This document shows positions 10,606 to 29,860 of a DNA stretch of 30,031 nt, piece after piece; positions within the stretch are counted from its first letter, which is position 1, and every line of letters begins with the position of its first letter. Source of the stretch: a virus; the IMG/VR virus record IMGVR_UViG_3300030102_000720, positions 1-30,031 of that record. The stretch is one strand, 5' to 3'. The position numbers and the translations under genes were made by a program. The notes beneath the pieces are model-generated. The model saw nothing but the letters and a program-made list of their open reading frames with translations. It was not told the DNA's origin and did no database searches.

Positions 10606-10652
10606 AATAGAACCTCATTTGAGTGCAGAATATAAATCAATTAAGAAAGCTG

Positions 10653-10662
10653 CAACGCACAA
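10653..10662 (-). promoter_or_regulatory. Late promoter-like motif copy 1 (before tail fiber)
   Basis: Minus strand TTGTGCGTTG followed by CA, identical over ten bases to copies at 21703-21712 and 25403-25412. It lies 47 bases before the fiber ATG and starts inside the T run of the terminator at 10661-10692. The arrangement suggests termination followed by re-initiation. Candidate phage-specific promoter; inferred from recurrence, strand and position. Confidence 0.5.
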
Positions 10663-10692
10663 AAAACGATTCTATCCGCACAATTAGAATCG
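10661..10692 (-). terminator. Intrinsic terminator after the internal virion protein genes
   Basis: On the minus strand, CGATTCTA (10692-10685) pairs perfectly with TAGAATCG (10674-10667) across a 10-base loop and is followed by six T (10666-10661). The stem includes the last codons and most of the stop codon of the gp16-like gene. The T run leads straight into the TTGTGCGTTG motif. Confidence 0.82.
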
Positions 10693-13600
10693 ACCTATTC
10701 CTATAGATCCCACGTTATCATCAACCGCTCTAGTTAAATTGTTAGTAAAACCCTTTAACCAAAATAGTTGAGCAAAAGGCAGAACTCTGCCTAAATCTTT
10801 TGTGCCTTCTCCTATATTGCCAGTAAGAAGATTTTCAAAAGCTCTATAATAATCTAACCCAACAGAAGGACCTGCACCTGCAACAGCAGTAACAGCGTCA
10901 GCAATATTTGGTTCTTGTGGATATTTAGGGGCAAGAATACCATTTGTTATGTTAGGACCGCCAAGAGCAAGAGAAGTAGCCATAGAAGTATAAAACAAAT
11001 CGCTGTAAAGTGGTGCTAACCCAGAGTAATCAAATGCTCTAGCAAATTGGTCTTGATAGCTAAGCTCTACATAATCAGGTGTTCTTACCTGCAATACCAT
11101 ATAGCCTAATCCAAGAGCCGCAGCAGTTCCAATAAACTGGCTCTTTATTTGACCATGAGCAAAAGCACCCATTGTTTTATTAACGGCAGCAAGACTATAA
11201 CTATAGAATTGAAATGGTAGTCCAAGTAATCCGCTTTCTATTCTAGCATACCCTCTATACTTAGGGTCTTCTTTCATACCAAATTTTCTAGCAACATGCA
11301 TAGGAATGTATGCAATACCATCTGTAATGATTGGTTTGTCAGCAGGAGTTCCCATTAAAATAGTATTTGCAACACCAGAGCCTAATGCGTTTCTAAATCT
11401 ATTTTGAGCAAGCTCATCTGTCCATGTATCTGAGTTTGCTAAATATAAACCAGAGTCACCCTTTTGCCAGTTGCCTTGTTGCTTTGCAATTCTATTAGCA
11501 ATAGGAGCATCAATCAGATATCTAGCTAAATACTCTTGCTCCATTTTAGTTGCTTTGCCTTCAGACAGTCGAACAGAATAATCTATCAAAGTATGACTAC
11601 GCATCATAGCGTCAAAGTCTTTGAATATTCTTGTTAATGGAGCTAAGCCATTTAATAAATAAAATGCATTTTTAGATTTATCAAAGATATTAGAACGTAA
11701 GGGATTATTACCTAAATCATCTACTAATCTTAAATGAACACTACCAAACAATATTTCTAACGCTTCACCTGCTATTCTAGCCTCTTTACCACCAAGTTTA
11801 ATTTGGTTGTTTTGCATAACACCAAATAAACCTCTCATGGTTTTACCAAGCCCATGCTCCATAATAATCTTTGCAGGTTCAGTAAGTGTCGCAATACCTG
11901 CAGAACCTAAGTACCCAAGCTGCGCTGCGGTTCTTAATACTTCGGCTGCTTTATAATCCCAAGAACTAGGGTCTCTGTGTATAACGCTTCCTGCAATTCT
12001 TTCATAAAGATGTCTTTGATCTCTAAGAACAGCATTTCTTTTTTTCTCTTTTACACCTGCATCTATTAAATCTAACTCTTGATCGTCTAATAACTCATCA
12101 ATAGATCTGCCGCCAAATTGTTTAGAAAACTCATATCTAGACCCAGTTCTTGTGGTGTAAGCTCTCATTACTTGAATAGGATTAGTGTGTATAAACTCTA
12201 AAACTTCTGAGTTTGGTATATCAATCATTCTATGTTTTAAATGTTTTGATTTGCCCATACCAAAAAATGCTTGGTCAAAATCTAACGGATCACCATTATT
12301 AATAATCTTATCTGTAATATCTTTAACTCTAGCATTTACATCACTTGTTCTTGTAGAAAGCCTAAAAGTTTCAACACCATCTTTTGTCATTCTTTCTATT
12401 TCAGCAGGATTGTCTTTAAACCATCTGGCTAAAACAGTTTCAAATCTTTCTCTATTTTTCTTAATATAATCTCTGTCCCAATATCTTGGTCTAAATACAG
12501 TTTCGTTTCTTGGTTTTACTTTTGGCTCTTCACCTGCCTCATCAAGAATAGACTGATGCATTTCCATTGTTTGCTTTTGCCTAGCAATAGATCTATTTAT
12601 TGCAGCTTTTGCATCTTTGGTTTTTGCAGTCTTAAGTTTTTTTTCTAAAAAATCTATTCTGTTCTGTCGTTTCTTAATATCAGTTTTATAAAAAGCATTG
12701 CTGCCAATCATGCCTTCTTCACGTAGTCTAACTTCCCAATCATCATAAAATTTATTAAGAGAGGACATTGCTCTTGACTCAAAAGCATCAGAAGCCTTTT
12801 CCCCTCTAATTATTTTAGCATCAACTCTTTCTATCCAAGACTCGAAGTCAGATCTTTTATGCAAATAATCTAAAGGCTTTATTGTTCCCTTTCCTGTTGA
12901 CTCACCCCAAATCTGCACAAGATCATCATAAACTTGAACCATTTCACCATCTAGTAATTTAGAGTTCTGATGCACAGAAGGTCTTAATGATTTACCTGCC
13001 TTATTCGCAGCAAGTAATATTCCAGAATCGTTTGCTATCTCTAGAGTTGTTAGCTTTACGCTGTCAGGAATACTTTTGTCTTGCAGTATTCTTTTCATTG
13101 GCGTTGTTACAGCATTGTAAAGCCATGAATTAGTAAAGATACTATCAGCAATGCTTAAGTCTGTAGTTGCTGTAGAAGGGTCTCCAACAGTATCAAAGTC
13201 AGATAGCTTTTGGCTTTTGTCAAAACCCTCATCTACAACCGTAGGTTTGTATGTAGGGTCTATAGATTGTCTAAGATTATTTATTTCTACTTCTGCATCT
13301 CTAGTTGCTCTAGCCCTTCTAGTTACAGGTATAGAAATCAAACTTTGTAAAGCAGCACCAAATACAAAAGCACTACCAACATTTACAGCAACTTCTTCTT
13401 TAGTTGCTAAAGGATCAAAGGGATAACGAATTGCTTCTTGTCCTGCTACAATTGCACTAGTAGCAGTACCAGTTTTTAAGGCTTTGTATGCTACGCTTCC
13501 ACCTTTAATAAAAGGTAATGGTAAATAATTAATAACATCAAAAAACTCTGCTCCAATTTGCATACCCATTGAAGCATTGCCATAAATATCTCTTCTAGCA

Positions 13601-13896
13601 ATATTATCTCTTAAATCTTTTTCTAAATGTCTTAAATGCTCCATGCTAGTTGCTCTAGCAAGTTCTACAGAATACATTTTTAAATCATCAGAAACATTGT
13701 CAACTGCGCTAAAACCCTCTTCTACTTCAGGACGCCAACCAAATTTATTATATTCCCTAATTCTGTCTATAAGTGGGTCATACCTCATGCCAAGCATAGC
13801 GCCTACAGTTTTTAAAAACTCAGGGCTTTCTTGTTCTTCTACTGGTCTGTCAGGTAAATACTCTATAACAGGTTTTGTTGTTAAAGCATTTTTCAT
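10684..13896 (-). CDS. Internal virion protein, T7 gp16 position (ejection protein)
   Basis: A 1070-residue protein in the place of T7 gp16, the largest ejectosome component. It has hydrophobic or amphipathic stretches that could insert in the membrane (VAVNVGSAFVFGAALQSLIS; FIGTAAALGLGYMVLQV; AVTAVAGAGPSVGL), a charged coiled-coil zone around residues 395-450 (IDFLEKKLKTAKTKDAK), and a Gly/Ala-rich region near 660-720. I do not see a transglycosylase domain at the N-terminus, unlike T7 gp16, so wall opening may be done by another virion protein. It overlaps the gp15-like gene by 4 bases (ATGA) and is followed by a terminator. Assignment rests on size, order and composition. Confidence 0.72.
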   Translation of the reverse strand: MKNALTTKPVIEYLPDRPVEEQESPEFLKTVGAMLGMRYDPLIDRIREYNKFGWRPEVEEGFSAVDNVSDDLKMYSVELARATSMEHLRHLEKDLRDNIARRDIYGNASMGMQIGAEFFDVINYLPLPFIKGGSVAYKALKTGTATSAIVAGQEAIRYPFDPLATKEEVAVNVGSAFVFGAALQSLISIPVTRRARATRDAEVEINNLRQSIDPTYKPTVVDEGFDKSQKLSDFDTVGDPSTATTDLSIADSIFTNSWLYNAVTTPMKRILQDKSIPDSVKLTTLEIANDSGILLAANKAGKSLRPSVHQNSKLLDGEMVQVYDDLVQIWGESTGKGTIKPLDYLHKRSDFESWIERVDAKIIRGEKASDAFESRAMSSLNKFYDDWEVRLREEGMIGSNAFYKTDIKKRQNRIDFLEKKLKTAKTKDAKAAINRSIARQKQTMEMHQSILDEAGEEPKVKPRNETVFRPRYWDRDYIKKNRERFETVLARWFKDNPAEIERMTKDGVETFRLSTRTSDVNARVKDITDKIINNGDPLDFDQAFFGMGKSKHLKHRMIDIPNSEVLEFIHTNPIQVMRAYTTRTGSRYEFSKQFGGRSIDELLDDQELDLIDAGVKEKKRNAVLRDQRHLYERIAGSVIHRDPSSWDYKAAEVLRTAAQLGYLGSAGIATLTEPAKIIMEHGLGKTMRGLFGVMQNNQIKLGGKEARIAGEALEILFGSVHLRLVDDLGNNPLRSNIFDKSKNAFYLLNGLAPLTRIFKDFDAMMRSHTLIDYSVRLSEGKATKMEQEYLARYLIDAPIANRIAKQQGNWQKGDSGLYLANSDTWTDELAQNRFRNALGSGVANTILMGTPADKPIITDGIAYIPMHVARKFGMKEDPKYRGYARIESGLLGLPFQFYSYSLAAVNKTMGAFAHGQIKSQFIGTAAALGLGYMVLQVRTPDYVELSYQDQFARAFDYSGLAPLYSDLFYTSMATSLALGGPNITNGILAPKYPQEPNIADAVTAVAGAGPSVGLDYYRAFENLLTGNIGEGTKDLGRVLPFAQLFWLKGFTNNLTRAVDDNVGSIGIGRF

Positions 13897-16800
13897 TTTG
13901 ATAACTTATCCCAACCATAAAACTTAACAATAGGAAGTCGCCTTAACATACTATCTTCTGATATAAATGGTTTACCACCATCTTCTCTTGCTTGTCTTTC
14001 TGCTTCTCTTGCTTCAGCTTCTATAGATCTTAGTAATTGATTGTATTTATTTTTTGCAAATGTTTCAGTCATACTTGTGTCAAACAAAGGCCATGTTAAT
14101 TCAGAAGAACCAAATTCATCAATTGGCCTATCATAAATTAATGGTCTTATTTCATTGTTTTCATCTCTAAAGTAAGCATAAAACTGAGGAACATCACCAC
14201 CTTCAAACGGCACAAGAAATACTTCTTTTGTTTGTCCAGTAACTACTTTAGATTTTTTAGTAATTGTTTCACCACTTCTTGATTGGCGCTCAACATTTTC
14301 AAAATAGAATATATCTTGCGGCTCTCCTAATCTAAACTCTCTAGGCAACTGTTGATTTATTAACTTAATAAATTCAGCTTTTTCTTCTGGGTCTGGGAAA
14401 ACAATATCTAATGCCATTTTAGATAAACTTTCACCACGTTTAAAAGGAGCATTAGGATCTATTACATGTTCAGATGGTTTATAATTACGTTCAACATAAT
14501 CTTTTAATTCTTTAGTTATTTCTTCTGAATCTTTACCCATTCTTGCATACATTTCTGCAATAGGGGCTAACTCAGCAACTACATTTATATCACTAGTTAT
14601 TTTATCTCTAACAAATTCATTTGGCTTACCTTCTGCAAAAACTCTTTTAAAATTTTCAGTCGCAGCAGGAGAATCTTCTTGTTGTTTTATTTCTGCAAGT
14701 ATTTCATTTGCTGTTTTACTATCACCAAAAAACTTTTTTCGCACAACAACTTCTCTAAGAAGAGCTTCGTTTTTACCAAAAATATCTCCAAATCTATTGA
14801 CAGGACCAACAGGGCTTTCGTCATTTAATAATTGAAATGCATGTTCAAGTAATACATCATGATCGACTTCTGGTGCAGTACCACTTAAAAAATTATTAAG
14901 ACCAGATATTAAACTTTCTGGCATTGTAATTCTTGCTAGTGGATAAAATGCAGGTGTCAAAGATTTAGGATCAGCAGCAGAGGAAATGCCAAGATTATCT
15001 TGCATTACTTTATCCATATCTTCTCTATGTTCTTTTGTTTTGTTTGTATTTCCTGCTTTAAGAACTTCTTTTCTTAACTGTATTGCTTCATCTCTTTTTT
15101 TCTTTTCATCTTTGCGTTCTTGCTCAGCAGTGCGTATGTCAGTTTCTCTTTTTTCAAGAACCCTTATTATTTCTTTTTTACCTTCTGGGAAGTTACGAAT
15201 AAGATCTGTAAGCTCTTCTGCTATTTCTTTATTGCTTTTACTTAAATTTGCTATTGCAGGATCATCATTTTTACCATCACTTTGAATAAGTAAACTCATT
15301 GCGTTAAGATCTTGAGAGCTTGCATTTTGAGTATTATTTATTAATCCCTCTGCACCTGCTAATTTAACCCCATTTATAATATTATCTTTTTCAGAATCGC
15401 TTAAAATATTGCTAGGTGTACGAATAATTTTAGCCCCAAACTTTTCTAATTCTTCTCTTGTTAATGAACTAGATCTTGCGGCTTGAGCAATATTATTGCC
15501 CTCATCTTGTAAAACTTTTTTTGCAATATAGTTATTTACATTTTCTCTAGCTGTATTTTTTACTTCGCTCAAAAAGTTTGTAACAGTATTTGTTTGATTA
15601 GAGTCATACAATCCAGATGCTTTAATTTTTCTTACTACTTCTTTTTGGAAAGATGTTAGGTTTTGAATACCATCATTATCAGGAGATATAATTGCTAGTC
15701 TTAAAGAATCAACTTCACCATCTCTTGCTGCTATAGCTAAATAGTTTCTAAGCTCTTCTGCTTTAATATCTGAAATAATACTTGGGTCAGGTTTAACCCC
15801 AGCTTTTAAATAAACATCAAAATCGTTAGTTAAGTTTTCTATTTTATTTATTGAGTTAGTTATTGATGAATTTAATGTTATTAAAGCATCAGCATTTAAT
15901 TCTGGTTTGTCAAAATCATTGTAGGCAGAATTAAGACTATTATATGTACCTGCACTAAAAGCACCAATATTTGTCTCTACTCTTAATTTAAATTGATCGT
16001 AGTCAAGAGTCGCTTCATCTTTTAACTCTTCTAAATCATCTTTCTGTGCATCAATTATTCGTTGACGTTCAGCAAGTTCAGCAAGTTCAGCATCTCGATA
16101 ATCAGCAGAAAGTCTTTCTGCATATGTCATTACATTTTCTAAATCTTCTCGGGGTAAGTCTTTTGTAAATTTTAAAACATCTTCTAAATCATCAAGGTAT
16201 TCATTATTAAGATTTGTTGTTACTTTACCATCAGTTCTTATTGCCAACTCAAATTGAGTTCTCTGATAGTCATTCATCATAAACTTAGGATAAAGCCCTT
16301 CTATTTTACCAAATACATAGGCAACTCGTAGTTCAACACCATGCCTTTCACCAGTACCTTCTTTTAATAAAAATGCTGCTTCGCCATCTTTATTCTTAGC
16401 GACTCTTGCTTCTATAAATGCCTCTAGTTTTTTAGAGTCTTGATTTGTTTTACCAAATTCATAAGCTGTTTCTTTATCATCTTTATTAGATAAAAGTATA
16501 TGCTCACCAAGTTTTGTTCTATGCCTACTAGCGTTTAGTTTCCCTAAAGATAACTCTGCTTTGGCAAGTTCTAGTGCGCCTTGCTGTTCTACATAGTTTG
16601 TGTAAATAGTTGGCTTGCCATTTTGCTCTGTGCTAAATGCCATATTCTTAAGGTATTCATTTAAAGCACCAGTAACCTTACCAACATTATCAGGATCGTC
16701 TTGATATTTTAATATTAACTCATTTGTTTTTCTTTGAATATCAATAGATACTTCATTCTGGTATCTATCAAGTATTACCCTTTGATATGCTTCACCTGCG

Positions 16801-17075
16801 GCCCTGCCTAAAAAGCCTTCACCATTTAATTGATTCAATGCTTCTGGCTTACCAGTAAGGGGATTAATATTAATAATAGATTTTGAATCAGTTTGAAATG
16901 CTAACTGCTCACCCTCTTTGACAGCTTGAACACCCATCTCTTTTACAGATGCTTGAACAATCTGATTAGCAGCCCTGCCAATACTGCTATACTTTTCTAC
17001 GCCACCAGTATTTACAGATCTAACCCCAACAGGACCAACTGAGCCACTTGTCAATCTTTGTTTTATTACTGGCAT
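13893..17075 (-). CDS. Internal virion protein, T7 gp15 position (ejection protein)
   Basis: A 1060-residue, highly charged, largely alpha-helical protein with long coiled-coil-like runs (for example residues 320-350, ELAELAERQRIIDAQKDDLE, and 650-680, rich in Glu, Lys and Arg). It has no membrane segment and no recognised catalytic motif. T7 gp15 (747 residues) is also a large helical core protein that forms the ejection tube with gp14 and gp16; this one lies between gp14-like and gp16-like genes. The start overlaps the preceding stop by one base (TAATG). It is considerably longer than T7 gp15, so it may carry extra domains. Confidence 0.72.
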   Translation of the reverse strand: MPVIKQRLTSGSVGPVGVRSVNTGGVEKYSSIGRAANQIVQASVKEMGVQAVKEGEQLAFQTDSKSIININPLTGKPEALNQLNGEGFLGRAAGEAYQRVILDRYQNEVSIDIQRKTNELILKYQDDPDNVGKVTGALNEYLKNMAFSTEQNGKPTIYTNYVEQQGALELAKAELSLGKLNASRHRTKLGEHILLSNKDDKETAYEFGKTNQDSKKLEAFIEARVAKNKDGEAAFLLKEGTGERHGVELRVAYVFGKIEGLYPKFMMNDYQRTQFELAIRTDGKVTTNLNNEYLDDLEDVLKFTKDLPREDLENVMTYAERLSADYRDAELAELAERQRIIDAQKDDLEELKDEATLDYDQFKLRVETNIGAFSAGTYNSLNSAYNDFDKPELNADALITLNSSITNSINKIENLTNDFDVYLKAGVKPDPSIISDIKAEELRNYLAIAARDGEVDSLRLAIISPDNDGIQNLTSFQKEVVRKIKASGLYDSNQTNTVTNFLSEVKNTARENVNNYIAKKVLQDEGNNIAQAARSSSLTREELEKFGAKIIRTPSNILSDSEKDNIINGVKLAGAEGLINNTQNASSQDLNAMSLLIQSDGKNDDPAIANLSKSNKEIAEELTDLIRNFPEGKKEIIRVLEKRETDIRTAEQERKDEKKKRDEAIQLRKEVLKAGNTNKTKEHREDMDKVMQDNLGISSAADPKSLTPAFYPLARITMPESLISGLNNFLSGTAPEVDHDVLLEHAFQLLNDESPVGPVNRFGDIFGKNEALLREVVVRKKFFGDSKTANEILAEIKQQEDSPAATENFKRVFAEGKPNEFVRDKITSDINVVAELAPIAEMYARMGKDSEEITKELKDYVERNYKPSEHVIDPNAPFKRGESLSKMALDIVFPDPEEKAEFIKLINQQLPREFRLGEPQDIFYFENVERQSRSGETITKKSKVVTGQTKEVFLVPFEGGDVPQFYAYFRDENNEIRPLIYDRPIDEFGSSELTWPLFDTSMTETFAKNKYNQLLRSIEAEAREAERQAREDGGKPFISEDSMLRRLPIVKFYGWDKLSK

Positions 17076-17581
17076 TAGGCTACATCCTTATTACTTTTAA
17101 ATAAATTGCTAACAGAAGGTGGCATATTAAGAGCTATGTCAGCTATATTACTTAAGAAGTTTGCATTAGATGTTGACCTCATACCTGCTGCTGCATTTTG
17201 GCCATATGTGTAAGATGTTGCCGCTTGTGCTGCATACTTAGCTTCTAAAAGCCTTGCTTGCCTGTCTATGTTCTCTATATCTTCTTGTGCAATTTTTCTA
17301 TTTTTTCTTAAATACGCCTCTACAGATCTATCTGAAGATGCAATTTTTGCGCTAAAAAAAGCAGTGTTCTGTTTTTCAGCTTCTAGTGCTTCATTCATTC
17401 TTCTATTACTTGCGTCTATAGCCTGAGCTTTTGCTAAGAATAGCTCAGAAACATACTGACGAGCCTCAAGCTGACCAATTTTTTTTCTTTCTTCCGCAGC
17501 TTTTTTTTCTGCCGACCTTTGGTCAAAAGTACTCTTAACACCTAAAAATGTTGCAAATGCAGTAAGAGGATTAATACCCAT
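17075..17581 (-). CDS. Internal virion protein, T7 gp14 position
   Basis: A 168-residue protein, close in size to T7 gp14 (196 residues). It starts with a short hydrophobic segment (INPLTAFATFLGV), continues as a long Ala/Glu/Arg-rich helix (about residues 20-125), and ends in a Gly/Ser/Asn-rich part. T7 gp14 inserts in the host outer membrane during DNA ejection. Position after the tail tubular B-like gene and before two very large virion proteins matches the T7 order 12-14-15-16. One-base overlaps on both sides indicate strong translational coupling. Confidence 0.72.
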   Translation of the reverse strand: MGINPLTAFATFLGVKSTFDQRSAEKKAAEERKKIGQLEARQYVSELFLAKAQAIDASNRRMNEALEAEKQNTAFFSAKIASSDRSVEAYLRKNRKIAQEDIENIDRQARLLEAKYAAQAATSYTYGQNAAAGMRSTSNANFLSNIADIALNMPPSVSNLFKSNKDVA

Positions 17582-19851
17582 TAGAAAGACACCTCCGCGA
17601 CTAAACCATTAACTTGAATAAACATAGGCGCAGTTTGCGTTACCGTAACTTGCGGATCTTTATTATATCCTAGTAAGTAGAACTCCCTTTTGCCTGTAAC
17701 TGCTTGTCTTGGTTGGCTAAAGTCATTGTTTACTTTTCTGATTATTAACTTTTTGTTATTTACCGAAACAGAGAGAGTTTCTGATAAATCAAGTATTACT
17801 CTAGATAAACTTCTAGGCTGTCCTGTTTCTGGGCCAATAGCAGTATTAACATCTATAGGATTAGTTTTTAACTCTACATCAAAACCAAAACCTACCTGAC
17901 AGCTTGTAAGAGAAGCGTCTACAGAGGAAACATCAACTTGACCACCAGACACCGTAAACTTTCCTAAGTAGTCTGTAGCACTTATTACATCGACTTCTGC
18001 ACCATTCTCAAAAAAGTTTGATACAGTAAATACTCCTGCTGTTCCTGAGTATGTGTTGCCAAGATCTAAGCTTACGTTTTGATTTAATTCAGTGAATACA
18101 AAACTATTTGTACCAGATCCAAGATCTGTTTTAATGACAGCAAAAACCCTGTTATCAATAGCAGTAACAGAGTGAAATGATCCGTTAGTTTCAAATCTTG
18201 TCCACCCTGCAACTCCTTCAATCCTGTTTAAATTATAAACAGCAATCTCACCAGTATAGTTCTGAGCAAAAACAAATGACTCAGCAGTATTTACCGCACC
18301 ACTAATCACACACATTTGAACAGGATCGCTTATTAAATGAGAAGAAAGCAATGAAATAGGATCGGCTTTATAAGCATTTTCACTATCATCATAAACAAAT
18401 TGACGTATCATCTTACCGCCAACCTGACCAAAAATAGTAGCGCCATAAAAAGGTTGAGGTCTTACGAATGTAGAGCCAAAAGATGTTTGCCTTTTTACTC
18501 TAGCATTTGTTGGGGTAATAGGTTCGTTCTCAAATGTAGGAATATAAAATTCAGAACCTGCGGTAAAAATATGTATATCCCTATTAGAAACAAAATGACG
18601 TATGGTTGCTACTTCACCAATACTCATAATTAATTCAAGACTATCATCGTCCGAAGCATCGCCTATATCAAAGTTATAATATAAACCAGACTTGCTTGCC
18701 CAGACAGTATCAGGCTGAGAAAGAGTTCCACCAAACCAAAGTCTATTTTCATGAAACCCAACAGCAGCAGGATATCCACGCAATGAAGAATATGATTGTT
18801 CGAAAAAATCTTCAGTTGGTGCATTAGTAACAATTTGCAAAACACCACCACCATCTTCTGAAGTATTTGCAGAAGAACCTGCGGTTATAGTATATCTATT
18901 TTCATCAAGAACTTTAACTATAGTTTTATTGCCATTTATTTGATTGGCGCTAATACCACCAACATCACTTGCATTTCTTACTACAATAGCATCATTTACT
19001 AACATATTATGGTTAATATGGGTTATTTCTAATGTAGAAGAACCACTAGTTGTTCTAATTGCACTAGGATCAAGCTCAACAAACAATTCATCTACAATAG
19101 TACCATGAGCCTGAGTAGATGAATTAACAGAAGTAATATATATTTCTGCCTCATGGTATAATAAACTTACACCAACATGTTTAGAATCGGGATAACTACT
19201 ACCAACTAGCGATCCTGTTGTGTCAAAATATGGGGCGCTTGTTGTAAGTGTAACACCAGTTCCAGTTGTAGTTAATGGATCTAAAGTAACGCCAGATGGT
19301 GCAAATTTATAATATGGTTGGTGAATCTTTCCACCACCTGCCCTAACCTGAAATGTAAAAGGCTCTACCTGAAAACTATTTAATCCTGTTCTTACTATTT
19401 GTTGACACATAAAAGTATTGTGGCAAAGAAATAAAATATCGCCACCTTGAGCATATGTCATTTCGTGTAAGTAAGCCTGATCCCATTGCAAAGATGCACC
19501 ATCTACATCTTGAGTAAGCGTAGTAGCTAAACTTAATGCACCAGTTGTAGGGTTAATAAAAAATATTTCACATTTTTGATGTGAAAATGCTATAACGTAT
19601 CTTTCATCATCTGAAAAAATAAACGGTATTAACCTTATCTGCTGCCTTATAGTTGTATCTTCTGTTACACCAGTAAAATCATGCAGTGCTTGAAACCCAC
19701 CTCTTTTAGCCACACCGCCTTCTGTTCTTATAAAAAAGTTTTTTACACTTTGAGCAGAAGAATTATAAATAGGAGAATCCGTCCTTGAAACCAAAGACGG
19801 ACTAATTTCACCATACTGAAAATTTGTAATTGGTATTCTTGCTTTTTGCAT
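17581..19851 (-). CDS. Tail tubular protein B-like (T7 gp12) tail nozzle protein
   Basis: A 756-residue protein, about the length of T7 gp12 (794). The N-terminus has the familiar NFQYGEISPSLVSRTD pattern followed by NFFIRTEGGVAKRGGF, seen in podoviral tail tube and nozzle proteins. The rest is beta-rich, as expected for the nozzle that joins the tail hub to the fibers. It abuts the tail tubular A-like gene (TAA then ATG) and overlaps the gp14-like gene by one base. It should form a hexameric nozzle through which DNA and ejection proteins pass. Confidence 0.82.
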   Translation of the reverse strand: MQKARIPITNFQYGEISPSLVSRTDSPIYNSSAQSVKNFFIRTEGGVAKRGGFQALHDFTGVTEDTTIRQQIRLIPFIFSDDERYVIAFSHQKCEIFFINPTTGALSLATTLTQDVDGASLQWDQAYLHEMTYAQGGDILFLCHNTFMCQQIVRTGLNSFQVEPFTFQVRAGGGKIHQPYYKFAPSGVTLDPLTTTGTGVTLTTSAPYFDTTGSLVGSSYPDSKHVGVSLLYHEAEIYITSVNSSTQAHGTIVDELFVELDPSAIRTTSGSSTLEITHINHNMLVNDAIVVRNASDVGGISANQINGNKTIVKVLDENRYTITAGSSANTSEDGGGVLQIVTNAPTEDFFEQSYSSLRGYPAAVGFHENRLWFGGTLSQPDTVWASKSGLYYNFDIGDASDDDSLELIMSIGEVATIRHFVSNRDIHIFTAGSEFYIPTFENEPITPTNARVKRQTSFGSTFVRPQPFYGATIFGQVGGKMIRQFVYDDSENAYKADPISLLSSHLISDPVQMCVISGAVNTAESFVFAQNYTGEIAVYNLNRIEGVAGWTRFETNGSFHSVTAIDNRVFAVIKTDLGSGTNSFVFTELNQNVSLDLGNTYSGTAGVFTVSNFFENGAEVDVISATDYLGKFTVSGGQVDVSSVDASLTSCQVGFGFDVELKTNPIDVNTAIGPETGQPRSLSRVILDLSETLSVSVNNKKLIIRKVNNDFSQPRQAVTGKREFYLLGYNKDPQVTVTQTAPMFIQVNGLVAEVSF

Positions 19852-20436
19852 TTAGCTTCGCCTATTCGTAATAAACCTCGATGTTGTTATTTTTCTTGTT
19901 GTTTGTTGTTGTGAGTCAATAGATCTAGCTTTGGCAAGAAGTCTTACATACTGCTGATCCATTAATAAAGCTAAGCTTTGATCTCTAATTAACGCAGTAG
20001 CAAATACAGTTGCCATTGCATATTCTACGCAAACAGAAAAATATGAAGGCCAGTAAACTTCTTCAACCCTATATGTATAATCAGCTATCAGTTCATCTGA
20101 AACATCAGCATCACAAAAAACTTTACTCCCATAAACATTATATTCAATTTGATAGTCTCTTACAGTAACCGCATGTAAGAATATATGTTCTGGCAATTGA
20201 TAGGCAGCATTAAAACGACCAGTAGGAGCGTCACTTAATCTGTTAAGTATTGCTTGATTAGTAGCAAATCTCCACCGTGTAGATGTAAGATTAGTTCTTG
20301 CAATATCTTCATACATATTACCTGCAATTAAAGCTTCTGTTGTATCATCATTAAAAGAAGTAATAGGCTCTGCACCAACTAAAATAAGTGCTCGGCTACA
20401 TATATCAATTGCGCTATTTGCAGGTGTGCTAGTCAT
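19852..20436 (-). CDS. Tail tubular protein A-like (T7 gp11) adaptor
   Basis: A 194-residue protein, matching T7 gp11 (196) in length and place. Its helical N-terminus (SAIDICSRALILVGAEPITS) and the following region (ARTNLTSTRWRFATNQAIL, PEHIFLHAV) are typical of gp11/gp4-type head-tail adaptors, which form the ring below the portal and hold the fibers in T7. The ribosome site AGAGG lies just after the terminator at 20452-20474 and can pair with CCTCT upstream of it. It abuts the gp12-like gene, as in T7. Confidence 0.8.
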   Translation of the reverse strand: MTSTPANSAIDICSRALILVGAEPITSFNDDTTEALIAGNMYEDIARTNLTSTRWRFATNQAILNRLSDAPTGRFNAAYQLPEHIFLHAVTVRDYQIEYNVYGSKVFCDADVSDELIADYTYRVEEVYWPSYFSVCVEYAMATVFATALIRDQSLALLMDQQYVRLLAKARSIDSQQQTTRKITTSRFITNRRS

Positions 20437-20451
20437 TGTAAACCTCTATGT

Positions 20452-20474
20452 AAAGAGAGGGGGCTTTCGCCCCC
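20452..20474 (-). terminator. Intrinsic terminator after capsid and decoration genes
   Basis: On the minus strand GGGGGC (20474-20469) pairs with GCCCCC (20464-20459) closed by a GAAA tetraloop, followed by TCTCTTT. The stem is very strong, the U-tract is interrupted. The place matches T7, whose main late terminator follows the capsid gene. Probably partial, since tail genes follow with no visible promoter motif. CCTCT (20460-20456) can alternatively pair with AGAGG (20447-20443), the ribosome site of the next gene. Confidence 0.72.
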
Positions 20475-20480
20475 ACCCTA

Positions 20481-20744
20481 TTAGTCAGTGTCAGTTACAC
20501 TAATTGCTGTACCATCCGATATATCGACTACAGAACCAGTGTTTGACAATACTACTGCCACACTCATAGTAGGCGCGTCACTGTCTAGTACAAAAATAGC
20601 ATCGCCAACATTTAACATGCTAGCAGCGTCATTAAAGTAACCAGAAACGCGAACTACTGTCATGGCATCAGTTGAGTCATAAAACCAAAGGCTATGACCA
20701 CCACCACCTGCCATACGAGAAAGACCTGATGCAGAATAAGCCAT
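20481..20744 (-). CDS. Small structural protein, probable capsid decoration protein
   Basis: An 87-residue beta-rich protein (contains WFYDSTDAMTVVRVSGYFND, VGDAIFVLDSD and VVDISDGTAISVTDTD) with no charged coiled coil or membrane segment. Small beta-rich proteins of this type directly after the capsid gene are common in marine phages, and I suspect a head decoration or minor capsid role, comparable in position to cement proteins. A strong ribosome site (AGAGGAGG) suggests high expression similar to the capsid. It is separated from the tail genes by a terminator. Function inferred from place and fold type. Confidence 0.6.
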   Translation of the reverse strand: MAYSASGLSRMAGGGGHSLWFYDSTDAMTVVRVSGYFNDAASMLNVGDAIFVLDSDAPTMSVAVVLSNTGSVVDISDGTAISVTDTD

Positions 20745-20758
20745 TTTAAATCCTCCTC

Positions 20759-21568
20759 TTAGTTATTGTCTAGGACTTCGTAGATACCGTTATCATCGAT
20801 AGCTACTGCGCCCATTGACATCATTGATGTTGCTAAGTGAGATACTTTTTCAGCAACATAGTTTACTTCAGTTTGAACATCAGAGTTCACACCAATACCT
20901 ACAGCAGTTGTATGGTAAGCAAAGTTTTTACCACCTGCTACAGCAGACGTTGAAAAGATCTTGAAGCCCAAGAACTCTTTCATTGTCATACCACCTGCGA
21001 ATGGTAGGTTTTGCGGGCCAACAAAGTCTGATGATGCAAACTCATTAATTGCAAACAAATCAGCGTATCCTGCAGGAGACATCGCAAGATAGCGTTGCCC
21101 ATCTTCTGGAACATCTGCCGTACCCATTGTTTCAAACAATGATAAAAGATCTGCTTTTTCAACAGCAGAGCTAGTGTCATGTATTTGAGTAGAGTTAGCA
21201 CCTGCATCCATAGCAGCGATGATAAGCTCATCTGTTTTTCTACCAAGAGCAGCAGCAGCAGATTGCGCTACAGCTTGACGCTCGTTGATATTTGTTTTCA
21301 ACTCATCAAGCTTATCGATGTATTCAGCAGCATAGAAGTCGCTCATTGATACTTCGACGTTGGTGTGTACTAGCTCCATAGGAGTTACATTACCATTGCG
21401 TGATTTTGTTGAGGCTGATCCAGTGCCTATTTTCTGGAATCGTGCAGTTGACCCTGACACATTTGTAGAGCGAATAGTATTCCGTAGCTTGGAACCCATA
21501 CGCTGATACGCCATGTGAACTTCAGTTTCAAACTGCTTTATAAAGGCTTGGTCTATAGTATTAGCCAT
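20759..21568 (-). CDS. Major capsid protein
   Basis: A 269-residue protein, at the short end for HK97-fold capsid proteins but typical of one podoviral 'phage capsid' family. The N-terminus (IDQAFIKQFETEVHMAYQ) is followed by a Ser/Thr-rich glycine-containing region (VSGSTARFQKIG), as expected for the N-arm and E-loop. AAALGRKTDELIIAAMDAG matches the long spine helix, and the P-domain and A-domain region ends with VSHLATSMMSMGAVAIDDNGIYEV. It lies after scaffold and before decoration and tail genes, as in T7 (gp9-gp10-gp11). AAGGA precedes the ATG by 9 bases. A repeat of the late motif lies 134 bases upstream. Confidence 0.87.
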   Translation of the reverse strand: MANTIDQAFIKQFETEVHMAYQRMGSKLRNTIRSTNVSGSTARFQKIGTGSASTKSRNGNVTPMELVHTNVEVSMSDFYAAEYIDKLDELKTNINERQAVAQSAAAALGRKTDELIIAAMDAGANSTQIHDTSSAVEKADLLSLFETMGTADVPEDGQRYLAMSPAGYADLFAINEFASSDFVGPQNLPFAGGMTMKEFLGFKIFSTSAVAGGKNFAYHTTAVGIGVNSDVQTEVNYVAEKVSHLATSMMSMGAVAIDDNGIYEVLDNN

Positions 21569-21647
21569 TTTTACAGTCCTTAATTGAGTTTCCGATTGCT
21601 ACGAGTGTCCACGTTTACACGTCAATTCGGGTATCCATAAGGGCCGA

Positions 21648-22205
21648 TCAATGCACTATGGGTCGTAATATTTCATTATTAACATCAAAATTTTCAGAAT
21701 TGCAACGCACAAATTCAACAAATCTATTATCATTGCTCATTTCGACAGGCTCAAAGCCAAGCCAACATGCCCAATTTAGCATATGTTCATTCTTAGAAAG
21801 AATAGTCATAGTGATTATTGGATGCAATTTATCAAACATATTTAACAAAGACTTAGACATCTTTGCTGTTAATACAATGTTATGCTCTAAACTATTTGCA
21901 AATATAGTAAACATTTGTGGAGTATCTTCAAAAAAAGAAAGACCACCTACAAAAACTATATTACCATATTTATTCCTACAAATGTAAGATTCTGTTGAAT
22001 TGAATATCTCAAATAGCGCCTGTTCTACAGAATCATAACCAAAGTCTTTTACCTCTACTTTGTTAGCAGGGTGCATAATACTTTCAAATTCTTTAACATG
22101 ATAATGTTTCATTGGGGTAAGATATGCCTTACCCCTTTGAATTATCTTCTTTTCATCTGTTATAGAGTTTTTGGAAACCATCATTGACTTCCTGTATAAA
22201 GTCAT
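21648..22205 (-). CDS. GNAT acetyltransferase-like protein (T7 gp13-like)
   Basis: A 185-residue protein resembling T7 gp13 and the DUF2833 family: a central VEQALFEIFNSTESYIC, a beta-hairpin with IVFVGGLSFFEDTPQMFTIF, and NEHMLNWACWLGFEP, which matches the C-terminal W-x2-x-LGF motif of GNAT folds. In T7, gp13 is needed for correct assembly of the internal core, though it lies later in the genome; here it sits between scaffold and capsid. The start at 22205 has AAGGAG 9 bases upstream and lies 53 bases inside the scaffold gene. A perfect hairpin occurs in its early coding sequence. An acetyl-CoA binding site is not clearly visible, so activity is doubtful. Confidence 0.65.
   Translation of the reverse strand: MTLYRKSMMVSKNSITDEKKIIQRGKAYLTPMKHYHVKEFESIMHPANKVEVKDFGYDSVEQALFEIFNSTESYICRNKYGNIVFVGGLSFFEDTPQMFTIFANSLEHNIVLTAKMSKSLLNMFDKLHPIITMTILSKNEHMLNWACWLGFEPVEMSNDNRFVEFVRCNSENFDVNNEILRPIVH
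21703..21712 (-). promoter_or_regulatory. Late promoter-like motif copy 2 (before major capsid)
   Basis: Minus strand TTGTGCGTTG followed by CA, inside the 3' end of the GNAT-like gene, in the codons for FVRCN. It lies upstream of the capsid gene start at 21568 with a 79-base gap between genes that would be a long 5' leader. In T7 the strongest late promoter has the same relation to the capsid gene. Inferred from recurrence. Confidence 0.5.
22114..22135 (-). other. Perfect hairpin within the GNAT-like gene
   Basis: Minus strand GGGGTAAG (22135-22128), loop GCATAT, CTTACCCC (22121-22114), eight perfect pairs with no U-tract on either side. It covers codons for QRGKAYLTP, about 18 bases beyond the scaffold stop, and is immediately followed by an in-frame ATG at 22112. 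It could be an RNA processing site or could damp expression of the GNAT-like gene relative to scaffold. Confidence 0.45.
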
Positions 22206-22896
22206 TGTTTCTCCTTGCAGGATGCCAGTACCTCTCGTCTTGCATCATCTCTCTCAAACCTGCTTCTGTAATTTTACCAGATGGTGTTCCGTCACTACCT
22301 AATGATGGAGACTGTAGTTTTTCCATAATAAACTCAAGAGTCTCTAAACCTTCGGCTGTTTCGGTAAGCCTTTCTATAGAGTCCATATAATCTTCTGGAA
22401 AAAATTGTTTAGAAAATAAAGCCGCAGCCTCTATCCTAGCATTAGCATTATCACCAAGTTTTTCTATCTCAGCATCAGTATCTATCATTTCTGCCTGAGT
22501 TGCTTGCATTACTTTTTCAATGCCTTCTTCAAACTCAGATTGACTAAAGCCATAAGTATATGCGTGATCTGCCCACCACTTTAACACATCACTATCTATA
22601 GCACTTTCCTCATCTATATAGTCAGGAAGTTGATAGTCACCTGCGCTATCTGGCCTATCTTTAAAACTCTCAGCTTCAATCTCTTTTAGGACTTCAGCAC
22701 GAATATCTTCGTCCTTAGTGCCTAGCTTAGACTCAAGCTCTTTATATGCTTTAGCTAAGTCCTCACCAGACTTGTATTTCTCAGGCAACCATTCTGGTCG
22801 ATCTTCTGTCTTAGCCTCTAAATCTTCTGCTACTACAAAGTCTCTTTCCTCTTGTGGAGGTATTGTTGCTTCTGCTTCTTGAACTTCTTCATTCAT
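22153..22896 (-). CDS. Capsid scaffolding protein
   Basis: A 247-residue very acidic, helical protein with the T7 gp9-type motif RPEWLPEKYKSGEDLAKAY (about residues 33-51) followed by KELESKLG. The C-terminal part contains a basic patch (ERYWHPARRNNDF) that would contact the capsid protein, as in other scaffolds. It directs procapsid assembly and leaves before packaging. It lies between the Bbp19-like gene (8-base overlap) and capsid, as expected. The ending overlaps the GNAT-like gene by 53 bases. Confidence 0.82.
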   Translation of the reverse strand: MNEEVQEAEATIPPQEERDFVVAEDLEAKTEDRPEWLPEKYKSGEDLAKAYKELESKLGTKDEDIRAEVLKEIEAESFKDRPDSAGDYQLPDYIDEESAIDSDVLKWWADHAYTYGFSQSEFEEGIEKVMQATQAEMIDTDAEIEKLGDNANARIEAAALFSKQFFPEDYMDSIERLTETAEGLETLEFIMEKLQSPSLGSDGTPSGKITEAGLREMMQDERYWHPARRNNDFIQEVNDGFQKLYNR

Positions 22897-23152
22897 TATT
22901 CTTTACCTTATGTGATCTCTGAATATGACGCTCTATTAAGCCAACAAGATACCGTTGACCTTCTAAATGACGCAACTCATCAGTAGAAATATTAGGACCA
23001 CTAACCATTTCTATAGTTATACTACGCAAGTATTTAAGAATTTCTTGACCAGTAGGCTGAGAAAATACAGAGCCAAAGTTAAGGCTTATCTTATCTTCTT
23101 CTGCTTTCTTTCTTGCTATTCCGTCTAAACCAATATGACTATTCTGCGGCAA
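22889..23152 (-). CDS. Bbp19-like small phage protein
   Basis: An 87-residue protein with the pattern FGSVFSQPTGQEILKYLRS, then ELRHLEGQRYLVGLIERHI, matching the Bbp19-like phage domain I know from podoviral gene clusters between portal and scaffold. The start is TTG at 23152: there is no ATG before residue 50, AGGA lies 7 bases upstream, and the gene overlaps the portal by 14 bases. Its function is unknown; the constant place suggests a role in head assembly. Confidence 0.72.
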   Translation of the reverse strand: MPQNSHIGLDGIARKKAEEDKISLNFGSVFSQPTGQEILKYLRSITIEMVSGPNISTDELRHLEGQRYLVGLIERHIQRSHKVKNNE

Positions 23153-24683
23153 TAGGTGGTCCTGCTATTTGTTCCTGTTGTTGCATTTGTTGCATTTGCT
23201 GCATCATTGCAACTATCTCTCTACGCTCTTCTCTATCACGAATCAACCCATCAGGTACACCAAACTTCTTAGCTAAATGAATAGCAGTCTCTTCAGAGTT
23301 AATAAGTACATTAGTTGTATCAGGGCCAAAGTAAGCATTAACAAGCTCTAAGAATCTAGATACAGCAGTAATATCTTGGTTTGATTGTGCCTGTGCTAAT
23401 GGTGAAGAAGATCTTATCTTTACTTCTCTTCCATTAACTGTAGGTAATTCAATACGTCCTTGTTTCTTAAGAATGTAGATTACTCTCTGTAATACTGGCT
23501 GCACTAACTCAGCTTGCAGTCTACCAAAGGCCGATCCTATCCTGCGTGACAAATCTGCCATACGCTCTGCAACTTCTGTAGCAGATGCAGGAGTTCTATC
23601 TGGATTTCCTAGCATATCATTGTATAATGCGCGTTTTATATTCAAGCGCATATCGCTAAGAACTATATCAGCAACATCAAATCTTCCTGCTGCTTGTATT
23701 GGCTGTAGACCGCCAGATTGCGGTGACTTAGGTATTATCGTGCCAGGGACTAAATTGATAGTATCTGGGTTAATGATTCCATCATCATCCATTTGGTAAA
23801 TGCCAGAGATAGCCATTTGTGCATTTTCCAAAATTAGCTGAATAGTTAAGTTAGTAGTCTTGATAGCAGATAAGGCATTAATTAATGGGCCTCTGCCGTA
23901 TACCTCACCTGCACATTTAGACCATCTAAAACAAACATATGGGTTAGAGCCTACACCCTTAAACTGCTGTTCTTTAATATAAGTCTTTGTTGACATATCT
24001 ATTACATAAAGAAAATATGCTTCTTCATTTTTTTTGCTATAATCCTTACAAAGTATTTCTAGTAAAGTACATTTACCTTCTGGGTCTCGCTGCGCTCTTT
24101 GCTGTACCTTTGGGTCAAGCTTTGCATCAGGGTAAAGTATTGTTATCTCAGAGTTTCGTATACCTTTACGCTCTCTGAACACATGGTCTATCTTATCATC
24201 AGGCCCAGTATCTAAAACTACATGTGGTAATGGTATTGCAGAGAAGGTAACAGGATTAATTGCATCACCTTCATCTACGCATAGAACACCAGTACCAACA
24301 GCTAAATCCATAAATGCTTCATGAACTTCCTGAGAAAAATTAGAGTTTTGTAATACCTCAAATACATACTCAGTTATTTCATCAAGGTCATTATCTACAA
24401 AGTCTCTTTCGCTTTTGGGTATTTCTGATCCTGCAATCAGATCTGCCCAACGTGCAAAGTTAGGAACTAATCCCGATTGGAGCCTCGAAGCAAACTCTTG
24501 AACGCCAACCACTGCTGTCTCATCAAAGATCTTATCATCTCTGCGCTGACCTGCAGTTTCGTAATAGAAAGACTCACGCTGCGGTAAAGCGTACTCATAA
24601 CATTCCTCAAAGAGGTCAACAAAGTTTTGCCTATGTGCTTTAGCTTTTTCATATCGTTCTAACTTCTGTTTTGGATCATGCAT
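23139..24683 (-). CDS. Portal (head-tail connector) protein
   Basis: A 514-residue protein, close to T7 gp8 (536). Typical features are the N-terminal helical region with YEYALPQRESFYYE, the central VFRERKG and CFRWSKCAGEVYGRGPL, and the conserved TPASATEVAERMADLSRRIG helix followed by LQAELVQPVLQRVIYILKKQG. The C-terminus is Gln/Met-rich (QQMQQMQQQEQ). It forms the dodecameric ring for DNA packaging and tail attachment. It overlaps the upstream gp7.3-like gene by one base (TAATG). Confidence 0.88.
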   Translation of the reverse strand: MHDPKQKLERYEKAKAHRQNFVDLFEECYEYALPQRESFYYETAGQRRDDKIFDETAVVGVQEFASRLQSGLVPNFARWADLIAGSEIPKSERDFVDNDLDEITEYVFEVLQNSNFSQEVHEAFMDLAVGTGVLCVDEGDAINPVTFSAIPLPHVVLDTGPDDKIDHVFRERKGIRNSEITILYPDAKLDPKVQQRAQRDPEGKCTLLEILCKDYSKKNEEAYFLYVIDMSTKTYIKEQQFKGVGSNPYVCFRWSKCAGEVYGRGPLINALSAIKTTNLTIQLILENAQMAISGIYQMDDDGIINPDTINLVPGTIIPKSPQSGGLQPIQAAGRFDVADIVLSDMRLNIKRALYNDMLGNPDRTPASATEVAERMADLSRRIGSAFGRLQAELVQPVLQRVIYILKKQGRIELPTVNGREVKIRSSSPLAQAQSNQDITAVSRFLELVNAYFGPDTTNVLINSEETAIHLAKKFGVPDGLIRDREERREIVAMMQQMQQMQQQEQIAGPPIAAE

Positions 24684-25354
24684 TATAAAAACCTACTATA
24701 GTATCCGATTCCACCAGTAGAACCAGTAATTAAAGATCTACGACCTGCACCGCTTCTGCGACCACTACCTGCCTGTCTTGTTTGCACATTTAGCTCACGC
24801 TCAGTACCAGATAAAACTCTTCTTCCTGCACCAAGATCTTGTGACCTTTCAAGCCTACGCCTTAATAAAGATTGTTTCTTTCTAGCCCTTTTTATTCTTT
24901 GCCTTCTTAGCTCTTCTTGAGCTAATCGCTCTTGTTCGGACATAGCTTCTTCTGGGTCTTTTTCATAAATAGATGCAGGAGTTACAGAAGTTTCTCCTAT
25001 AGGGCTTCCCTCTGCAGTTGTTACATCAGCCTCAGATTCTATTAAAGGTTTTGCCTCTTCTTCTGCTTCTGCTGCCGCATCTGCTGCTGCATCTGCTTCA
25101 GCCTGTTCTCTAGCTCTTCTTTCCCTTTCTTCTCGTTCTCTTCTTTGCCTTTCCTTTTTTTTCCTTTTTTTCTTTCTTTCTACAGAAGCTTTACGAGCAG
25201 GGTTGTCATCAAACTTTTCTTTACCTGTTCTTTTATCTGACTCTGGGCCTGCTGAAGTTGTAAGTTCTGGAAAATAACCAGAGGATTTAGCAGTAGTTGT
25301 GCCAGTGCTTTTTTTCTTAACTGTTTTTGTTGTATTTTTCTTAGGCGAACACAT
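24683..25354 (-). CDS. Low-complexity virion protein, T7 gp7.3 position
   Basis: A 223-residue, highly charged protein. It has a Lys/Thr-rich N-terminus (CSPKKNTTKTVKKK), a long Arg/Lys/Glu helix (about residues 55-85), an Ala/Glu tract, a second basic helix (about 140-170), and a Gly-rich C-terminus (GAGRRSLITGSTGGIGYY). The end recalls T7 gp7.3, which also has a Lys-rich start and ends in GGKKSL followed by a Gly-rich tip, and which lies just before the portal gene as here. T7 gp7.3 is a small tail/host-range protein; this one is about twice as long. AAGGAG precedes ATG 25354, and the late motif lies 48 bases before that ATG. Confidence 0.6.
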   Translation of the reverse strand: MCSPKKNTTKTVKKKSTGTTTAKSSGYFPELTTSAGPESDKRTGKEKFDDNPARKASVERKKKRKKKERQRREREERERRAREQAEADAAADAAAEAEEEAKPLIESEADVTTAEGSPIGETSVTPASIYEKDPEEAMSEQERLAQEELRRQRIKRARKKQSLLRRRLERSQDLGAGRRVLSGTERELNVQTRQAGSGRRSGAGRRSLITGSTGGIGYYSRFL

Positions 25355-25401
25355 TGTAAAACTCCTTGTTACCTATTGGTAAACACAAATCAAAACAAAT
25401 T

Positions 25402-26931
25402 TCAACGCACAAGTGACCAAACGCTAGGTTTGTGTGCCGCACTTTTAGGCTTTCTTTTAAAAACATCATAGTCTTTTTTAGCTTGTACTACCTGTGCAGG
25501 TTTCTGATTTGACATCAAAGCACGTCCTTCCCCTGCACCTAATAGCAAATATTGTAGAGCATCGTGTATGTGAGAGTACATATTTTTATCAGGTTTATCT
25601 GCATATCTCTCGCCACTTACCTCCATACGTTTATAGGAATAACCACCCTCAAAGCCTTTGATAAGTTGTTGGCATCTTCTATCTATTAAAAACGCAGGTT
25701 TACCCTCAACCATCTTATTAAGTTGCTGCGCCACTGACTCCAAGCGAAGATCCACAGAATTGCTTGGGGCGGGAAATGCACGTAGGCCAGCACCTCTAAG
25801 TATGTGAAAAGGGGTAGATTCGTCCGTTTGCGCCCGAAAATCCCCTGCAGGATCACCATATATATAGACATCGGAAGTCTCAGAAAAACGAGTAGCGATT
25901 TCATTTCTTAACACCTCTGCGAATCTAACAATGCCCATATCAAAAGCAACGACCTCTGATTGGATTAACCACCTGTTCCTAACCTTCTGACCTATAACAG
26001 CCGCAGGTGTCAAACCAAAATCAATACCAATGTACAAAGGCAACCCTGCCGCTACTGGTATTTCTTCTCTAGCAATATGTGTTTCGCTTGCAAACATAGG
26101 ATATACTGGCTTTCCGTCTTGTATCGTGCCCAGTTTATTCATAACATAGACATCAATCCAAGACTTTGTTTTACCTTGAATAAGATTAGGATAATACCCT
26201 CTCATCATATTCTTTTTGTTTTCTGCCTGATCGCTAGGCAAATAATCTTCTACCTCACCATCTTCGTTGTATATTTCTTTCATACCAGATGGTTGAGTAA
26301 AGAACTGCCAATTGTCAGGTTTTACCAACATCTTAGCCTGTTCTCTTGGTATATGATCTGGCACTGGTACTTCACCAGACATAATAGGCCACCAATGATC
26401 TTCTTCTGGTGCGTTTGTATCTGCAATAACACCTGTCCAACTTGGGCCACCATCACGCATAGAGGGGTATCTGCCTACCCTCATAGTACACGCATCAATA
26501 ATACTTTTAGGAATCTCCCTTGCCTCGTTAATCCAGATGCCTGTCAATTCGAGGGACAATAGTTTTTTAACATCTTCTGGACGGTCAAGAGCAAGGAAGA
26601 TTACCTCAAGGTCTATGTCACCCTTTCTAATATGATGTGTATAAGGCACAGACCAAGTAAACTTACCCCATTCATTCTCAGGAAACCAATCAAGCCAAGT
26701 CTTAATAGTAGTCGTTCTAAGTTGTGGGTTTGTATTTCTTATAATCGCCCACCTGCTTTTCCTTACACCATCAGGAGCTTTTTCCTGAGACAAGGCTCTT
26801 CTAAATACTTCAACACAACATCCAACAGACTTACCAGATCCTACTGGACCTCTTATGCCACGAAAGAAAGTGTTGTCTTTCATAAACTGCTTTAAGACTT
26901 CACCATCAGGTTTGTACTTAAAATCTATCAA
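25402..26931 (-). CDS. terL: Terminase large subunit
   Basis: A 509-residue packaging ATPase/nuclease. The Walker A motif is GPVGSGKS (28-35) and the Walker B region GIWINEARE (131-139). The RNase H-like nuclease carries GIDFG (Asp304), YGDPAGD (Asp360) and MYSHIHDALQYLLL (Asp457). It pumps DNA into the procapsid through the portal and cuts concatemers. The start is TTG 26931, chosen because it overlaps the preceding stop (TTGA) and AAGGG lies at good distance, while the next Met is at residue 17, close to the Walker A motif. Small terminase lies about 2.4 kb upstream, separated by small genes. Confidence 0.92.
   Translation of the reverse strand: MIDFKYKPDGEVLKQFMKDNTFFRGIRGPVGSGKSVGCCVEVFRRALSQEKAPDGVRKSRWAIIRNTNPQLRTTTIKTWLDWFPENEWGKFTWSVPYTHHIRKGDIDLEVIFLALDRPEDVKKLLSLELTGIWINEAREIPKSIIDACTMRVGRYPSMRDGGPSWTGVIADTNAPEEDHWWPIMSGEVPVPDHIPREQAKMLVKPDNWQFFTQPSGMKEIYNEDGEVEDYLPSDQAENKKNMMRGYYPNLIQGKTKSWIDVYVMNKLGTIQDGKPVYPMFASETHIAREEIPVAAGLPLYIGIDFGLTPAAVIGQKVRNRWLIQSEVVAFDMGIVRFAEVLRNEIATRFSETSDVYIYGDPAGDFRAQTDESTPFHILRGAGLRAFPAPSNSVDLRLESVAQQLNKMVEGKPAFLIDRRCQQLIKGFEGGYSYKRMEVSGERYADKPDKNMYSHIHDALQYLLLGAGEGRALMSNQKPAQVVQAKKDYDVFKRKPKSAAHKPSVWSLVR
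25403..25412 (-). promoter_or_regulatory. Late promoter-like motif copy 3 (before gp7.3-like and portal genes)
   Basis: Minus strand TTGTGCGTTG followed by AA, overlapping the last codons and stop of the large terminase gene. It lies 48 bases before the ATG of the gp7.3-like gene, almost the same spacing as the copy before the tail fiber (47). Together with copies at 10653 and 21703 it marks the start of a structural gene unit. Inferred promoter. Confidence 0.5.
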
Positions 26932-28128: not shown

Positions 28129-28505
28129 TACAAGTCTTTCATCTTTTCTATAAGACTCTTGCCCTTTTTAAAGGTAGTCATCATGCCGCCACCACCACTT
28201 ATTCTTCTACCACGTGCTGACAAATCTTTAAGTTTAGTTTTTTTACCTTCAGTAGGCTTTGTTTTGTCTTTTAAATCTTCTGTTATTTTGTTTATGGTCT
28301 TATCAAGATTTTTTAAACGAATCCCTAAAGACTTTAATTTTTTACCTCTAGATTTTGCTTCTGCTCTTGTTTGTTTAGACTCCCCTGCTGCAAGTACATC
28401 TTGAGCAGCATCGAAACCTTGCTCTTCTAAGTTATCTATTTGTTTCTTAATATCATTCCTTAATTCTTTTTTATCTTTTAAAATACTAAACAATGAACGT
28501 TTCAT
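28128..28505 (-). CDS. Basic coiled-coil protein
   Basis: A 125-residue helical and strongly basic protein (KDKKELRNDIKKQIDNLEEQ at the start, then LKSLGIRLKNLDKTINKITE as a second coiled coil, and a Gly-rich ISGGGGMM before the C-terminus). There is no membrane segment. It overlaps the preceding stop (ATGA) and has GGGGGA upstream. Unknown function; charge and neighbourhood suggest DNA association. Confidence 0.62.
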   Translation of the reverse strand: MKRSLFSILKDKKELRNDIKKQIDNLEEQGFDAAQDVLAAGESKQTRAEAKSRGKKLKSLGIRLKNLDKTINKITEDLKDKTKPTEGKKTKLKDLSARGRRISGGGGMMTTFKKGKSLIEKMKDL

Positions 28506-29837: not shown

Positions 29838-29860
29838 CCCCCCTCTCCCTCTCTCCCCCC
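29838..29860. repeat. 23-base homopyrimidine near-mirror tract
   Basis: A run of C and T only, with C6 at each end, C3 in the middle and TCT or TCTCT between; read backward it is almost the same. The minus strand is G-rich. Near-mirror purine/pyrimidine tracts can form triplex or G-rich structures. It is unique in this AT-rich window. Confidence 0.65.

Follow-up and report, generated by a model that had tools for sequence, protein, structure and literature searches.

A two-part element before the late genes of T7-like marine phages points to a small XRE protein as candidate activator

What reads a ten-base element that recurs before the late genes of a T7-like marine phage? The window, a whole IMG/VR record of 30,031 bases, is classed as linear and probably cut at both ends. 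It carries terminase, portal, scaffold, capsid, tail tube, internal virion protein and tail fibre genes on the minus strand, while the plus strand holds recombination genes, namely an exonuclease, Erf and what is probably a single-strand binding protein. An earlier note on this DNA had singled out TTGTGCGTTG as the core of late promoters and assigned it to a phage-encoded RNA polymerase lying outside the window. Position, strand and conservation in relatives support the first part of that proposal well; the comparative evidence speaks against the second.

The core box is confined to late positions of the window. It occurs exactly three times, always on the minus (late) strand, against 0.07 copies expected by chance, and none of 100 shuffles of the window reached three copies. 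The bases that follow are CA, CA and AA, as the earlier note had reported, and its distances of 47 and 48 bases to the ATG are right for the tail fibre and gp7.3-like genes. Its placement of the sites before the tail fibre, capsid and gp7.3-like/portal genes also stands, with two corrections of detail: the second site is not intergenic but inside an ORF, and the core of the third shares bases with the stop codon of the terminase ORF. The genes and core sites are as follows.

8329-10605, minus strand: tail fibre gene (PHROG tail matches), downstream of the first core site
10653-10662, minus strand: core box TTGTGCGTTG of the tail-fibre site, intergenic, 47 nt before the ATG at 10605, in a slot kept in most motif-bearing relatives
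20759-21568, minus strand: major capsid gene (phrog_3437, 2.7e-57), downstream of the second core site
21648-22205, minus strand: ORF lying between the scaffold and capsid genes, weakly matched to phrog_308 (internal virion protein); its 3' end contains the capsid-site element
21703-21712, minus strand: core box TTGTGCGTTG of the capsid site, in the F-V-R-C codons (...EFVRCN...) of that ORF, 134 bases ahead of the capsid ATG at 21568
23139-24683, minus strand: portal gene (phrog_332, 1e-88), following the gp7.3-like gene
24683-25354, minus strand: gene for a gp7.3-like basic protein, so called from position and composition only, with no family match; downstream of the third core site
25402-26931, minus strand: terminase (terL) ORF, its stop codon overlapped by the third core site
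25403-25412, minus strand: core box TTGTGCGTTG of the terL-end/gp7.3-like site, 48 nt before the ATG at 25354
29886-29891, minus strand: TTGACA in the pre-terS slot, where several relatives carry TTGTGCGTTGACA and the window has no core

A near-match, GTGTGCGTTG at 2681-2690 (minus strand), runs antisense to early genes and is conserved in two relatives, G026 and G027; it was not counted as a site. The minus-strand tail fibre gene also holds a run of GNVTG-type repeats at about 8.6-8.9 kb. Paired G-runs, GGGGGGAGAGAGGGAGAGGGGGG, precede terS at 29838-29860 (minus strand), are shared by several relatives and are possibly linked to packaging or genome ends.

Relatives carry the element at the same late positions. 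Searching IMG/VR with four kinds of protein (portal, internal virion, Erf and capsid) turned up about 300 loci. The earlier note had named enrichment at late positions of relatives as a check, and this enrichment is strong: in 80 portal-neighbour loci the late strand has 112 exact cores and the opposite strand none. Four places recur: ahead of terS (or the next gene), at the terL end, where the gp7.3-like gene follows, and ahead of the capsid and tail fibre genes. The terS site is present only sometimes in relatives and is the sole one of the four without a core in the window, with TTGACA kept there. The capsid slot holds an exact core in 167 of 208 loci, and in most motif-bearing relatives the tail-fibre core starts 53-60 nt from the ATG. 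The motif is absent at late places in the isolates Hodr and MEP301.

At the capsid site, the element evidently dictates the synonymous codon choice of the ORF that it overlaps. GTG-CGT encodes the Val-Arg pair in 113 of 117 distinct contexts specifying F-V-R-C, against a late-gene background in which GTG makes up 13% of Val codons and CGT 28% of Arg codons. In a subclade without the terL-end site, the Val codon has switched synonymously to GTT. Some relatives retain the motif even where the reading frame over it has ended, which together with the codon constraint indicates selection on the element as DNA. Strand bias, codon constraint and retention past the ended frame rule out chance or coding conservation as the source of the exact motif.

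The core has a downstream counterpart, and the full element reads core, a gap of 17 or 18 bases, TGN-T-(T/A)-A. An expectation-maximisation (EM) model run on 63 non-redundant core sites placed a second box, TG-N-T-(T/A)-A, 17 or 18 bases downstream of the core. Its two-box log-likelihood was 159, against a mean of 32 and a maximum of 38.6 in 20 shuffled sets. In this model the spacing is 17 in all 26 terL-end sites, 18 in 18 of 19 capsid sites, and 14-18, mostly 17-18, in tail-fibre sites. The window has one second box at each site.

10628-10635, minus strand: second box TTATATTC, containing the -10-like TATATT, 17 nt after the tail-fibre core (EM model)
21677-21684, minus strand: second box TGTTAATA, 18 nt after the capsid-site core (EM model)
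25378-25385, minus strand: second box TGTTTACC, 17 nt after the terL-end core (EM model)

The second box resembles an extended -10 element. The T and G of TGN are conserved at 96% and 93%, and offsets are mainly 27-28, which puts TGN at the distance from the -35 TTG that is usual in extended -10 promoters (17 +/- 1 bases between hexamers). The -10 hexamer itself has a weak A/T-rich consensus, and among the window sites TATATT appears only at the tail fibre. Reading TGN as an extended -10 would place the core's final TTG at -35 to -33, for a spacing of 17 bases, and the other core bases at -42 to -36. In this register, leaders at the tail-fibre and terL-end sites would be only about 15-20 bases long, leaving just room for a ribosome-binding site. 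A generic sigma70 scan of the window was uninformative (43 matches against 56.7 in shuffles). With nothing but the pattern to go on, a scan of the collection with TTGTGCGTTG-N17/18-TGNTTA returned 94 matches in group contigs, 93 of them in late sense; 28 further matches, on contigs without a homologue of any window gene, look like chance. On these sequence comparisons, the element is very probably a real late promoter.

The sites are kept or lost as a set. Among 130 loci with both slots, 83 carry the capsid and terL-end sites, 35 carry neither, 12 have the capsid site only and none the terL-end site only; in 8 of the 12 capsid-only loci a one-letter variant such as TTGTGAGTTG stands at the terL end. 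The capsid site is broken in the G003/G004 and G006/G020 subclades, the terL-end site has gone along with its spacer in G003, G004 and G006, and G003 and G004 have also lost the tail-fibre site. Natural broken forms of the core include TTGTTCGTTG and TTGAGCGTTG. Joint retention and loss of sites thousands of bases apart indicates a single trans-acting factor.

One early gene follows the sites exactly. It encodes a protein of about 80 residues of the Cro/CI type (XRE, HTH_3) and belongs to the early operon of relatives, where the exonuclease gene follows about 1-1.9 kb downstream. All 26 records with a mapped site have the gene; all 11 without a site lack it. When 449 protein queries from seven genomes were compared, only XRE queries separated the records 26 to 0; setting aside an ORF antisense to XRE, the next distinct gene reached 20/26 against 2/11. 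Presence was called by direct tblastn and HMM, since single-linkage clustering of the larger set had merged XRE and an unrelated family. Across the XRE-bearing records and the window, the exact core splits 75 to 2 in favour of the late strand. On a TerL-portal-capsid tree, motif and XRE changed jointly three times, in agreement each time, although three independent losses set a floor of p = 0.25 on a sign test. The window and three fragments (G052, G053 and G055) have sites and no XRE gene, and the relevant region is missing from all four.

1-120, plus strand: left record end, 120 nt ahead of the exonuclease gene; in relatives the XRE gene sits about 1 kb upstream of this point, in a region that the record does not reach

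The window lacks the gene only because its record stops 120 bases before the exonuclease gene, and its own XRE gene would lie just beyond the left contig end.

The features of the XRE protein are compatible with a role as activator. An AlphaFold model built from 14 sequences gives a four-helix HTH domain (mean pLDDT 83). Among solved structures its fold comes closest to HipB, restriction controller (C) proteins, SinR and P22 c2; profile matches include 2ef8 (C.EcoT38IS) and P22 c2. In the 14-sequence alignment S33 and Q34 are invariant, E35 occurs in at least 90%, and both the LSQ(E) stretch and the recognition-helix region are nearly invariant. Through the LSQ(E) patch, lambda CI and C proteins touch region 4 of sigma70 and activate transcription (PMC4824078). 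By analogy this patch makes activation by XRE possible, not proven, as LSQE is common across the XRE family generally. One feature runs against expectation: the core is asymmetric, whereas dimeric XRE proteins usually have palindromic sites. Among named phage records, searches with XRE gave remote HTH matches only; the Hodr isolate, which lacks the motif, has a distant relative that may have another specificity or another role. Overall, the XRE protein is the best candidate for the late activator, and likely the late-gene switch.

The surroundings of the XRE gene hold further HTH genes. In L215 and other relatives it shares about 119 bases, read in another frame, with the 3' end of a second conserved HTH gene, so that two regulators overlap; in G026 the pair lies at late-oriented positions 28399-28635 and 28517-28837. 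In G038 (L377/L378), which has neither XRE nor motif, the position of XRE, about 1.4-1.7 kb upstream of exo, is taken by another HTH gene that may be a replacement regulator.

We propose that each of the three sites serves as a late promoter for the host RNA polymerase and its housekeeping sigma factor. The last TTG of TTGTGCGTTG would take the place of the TTG in the sigma70 -35 hexamer, with the extended -10 (TGN, then a weak A/T-rich -10) following 17-18 bases on. XRE protein from the early operon would bind the box in its upstream portion (about -42 to -33) and contact sigma region 4 in the manner of lambda CI and the restriction-controller C proteins. Since XRE would be made from the early operon, late genes would come on only after early expression. 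Taken whole, a host sigma70-type promoter activated by XRE at a box overlapping the -35 region is the probable explanation.

Other readings of the element fit the data less well. A promoter for a phage-encoded single-subunit RNA polymerase, as the earlier note had it, would suit the T7-like structural gene order and the strictly conserved asymmetric box before late units. However, PF00940 (RNA_pol) matched in no related record searched, with T7 as control at 9.9e-110. The earlier note had proposed looking for such a gene elsewhere in the genome; none turned up in related records, including G023, G024 and G030, which have terminal direct repeats of 121-127 bases. Pfam scans of nearly all G024 ORFs and of the early and small late G023 ORFs likewise found no polymerase and no sigma factor. 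The variable box spacing (17 at the terL end, 18 at the capsid, 14-18 at the tail fibre) also sits badly with T7-type promoters, which are one contiguous block. The phage-polymerase reading is thus largely refuted and very improbable, although the models might miss a very diverged polymerase. An equally slim chance attaches to an RNA-level or DNA-processing signal (a leader element, processing site, or packaging or replication signal) in place of a promoter. Such a signal would be strand-specific and could stand upstream of several late genes, as the element does, but the core lies anywhere from about 43 to 150 bases from the ATG while its spacing to the TGN box is fixed, and the capsid leader has no more RNA structure than shuffled sequences (z = +1.4).

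The identity of the factor leaves more room. The box could be the site of a host transcription factor or an alternative host sigma, with host switches costing the phage its sites and XRE being lost at those times for other reasons. Site losses do coincide with the exchange of other early genes, but no other gene queried follows the sites as closely as XRE, and four MAG bins (about 12.8 Mb), which may not be the hosts, contain just three copies of the complete two-box pattern. For two of these three matches a phage portal or XRE gene lies on the same contig, and the contig of the third seems, by number, to be the portal contig; the pattern therefore does not resemble a common bacterial promoter. 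We consider a host factor unlikely. Host names from the MAG bins conflict (Euryarchaeota, Opitutae, Rhodobacterales, Pseudomonadota) and were unusable. Alternatively, the second HTH protein, HTH2, might recognise the box by itself or in complex with XRE, leaving XRE as partner or repressor. Its gene adjoins and overlaps XRE, but it occurs in motif-bearing and motif-less genomes alike, which makes this version doubtful in the extreme, if a shade less so than a phage polymerase.

Activation of host polymerase by XRE would bear on how T7-like phages without their own RNA polymerase time their late genes. For HTVC010P-type pelagiphages, the Skadi study (PMC10504331) could name generic host promoters only. 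We lean slightly towards a general version, in which one XRE early activator and three or four asymmetric 10-bp boxes over the -35 region do the job of T7 polymerase in widespread uncultured polymerase-less T7-like marine phages, several lineages having dropped the system as a unit. Box, spacing and 80-residue protein are each named, and natural loss variants serve as controls; the switch is thus testable in a laboratory strain without phage culture. The element is also a simple marker for annotating late transcription units across many uncultured marine phage genomes.

Known phage promoters share parts of this design. T7 late promoters stand before the corresponding late genes as the sites do here; unlike them, T7 promoters are contiguous and need a single-subunit RNA polymerase, none of which was detected in the records searched. 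Lambda CII is an early phage activator whose site, TTGC-N6-TTGC, places repeated TTG elements over the -35 region. The candidate system has the same arrangement of early activator, -35 position and repeated TTG, but in the form TTG-N4-TTG and with a conserved extended -10. Lambda CI and C proteins (PMC4824078) are likewise small Cro/CI-type HTH proteins with an SQ(E) patch contacting sigma70 region 4 and a site beside or over the -35. Their C boxes and operators are palindromic, whereas the box here is an asymmetric 10-mer, which from three or four places would regulate the entire cluster of late structural genes. The C-protein family proper does not apply: the core is not palindromic, and the Pfam scans (G024 and part of G023) found no restriction-modification genes. 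T4 middle promoters rely on an early phage factor that redirects host polymerase through a MotA box upstream of the -10 (PMC6755090, PMC2988021). The layout of box, -10 element and early factor (here a candidate) is shared, with a different box and position; no MotA-like match appeared in the same scans of G024 and part of G023. The HTVC010P-type pelagiphage Skadi has no RNA polymerase gene, and only sigma70-like promoters near replication genes are reported for it (PMC10504331). A family search found no RNA polymerase gene in Hodr either; both resemble the present group in this respect, and Hodr differs in lacking the motif and in its distant XRE. The earlier note had expected an undescribed promoter class, and the literature searched indeed holds no description of it, nor of late promoters of such kind for HTVC010P-type phages (PMC10504331). 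Early-activator-dependent late promoters are a kind already known; what is new is the variant seen here.
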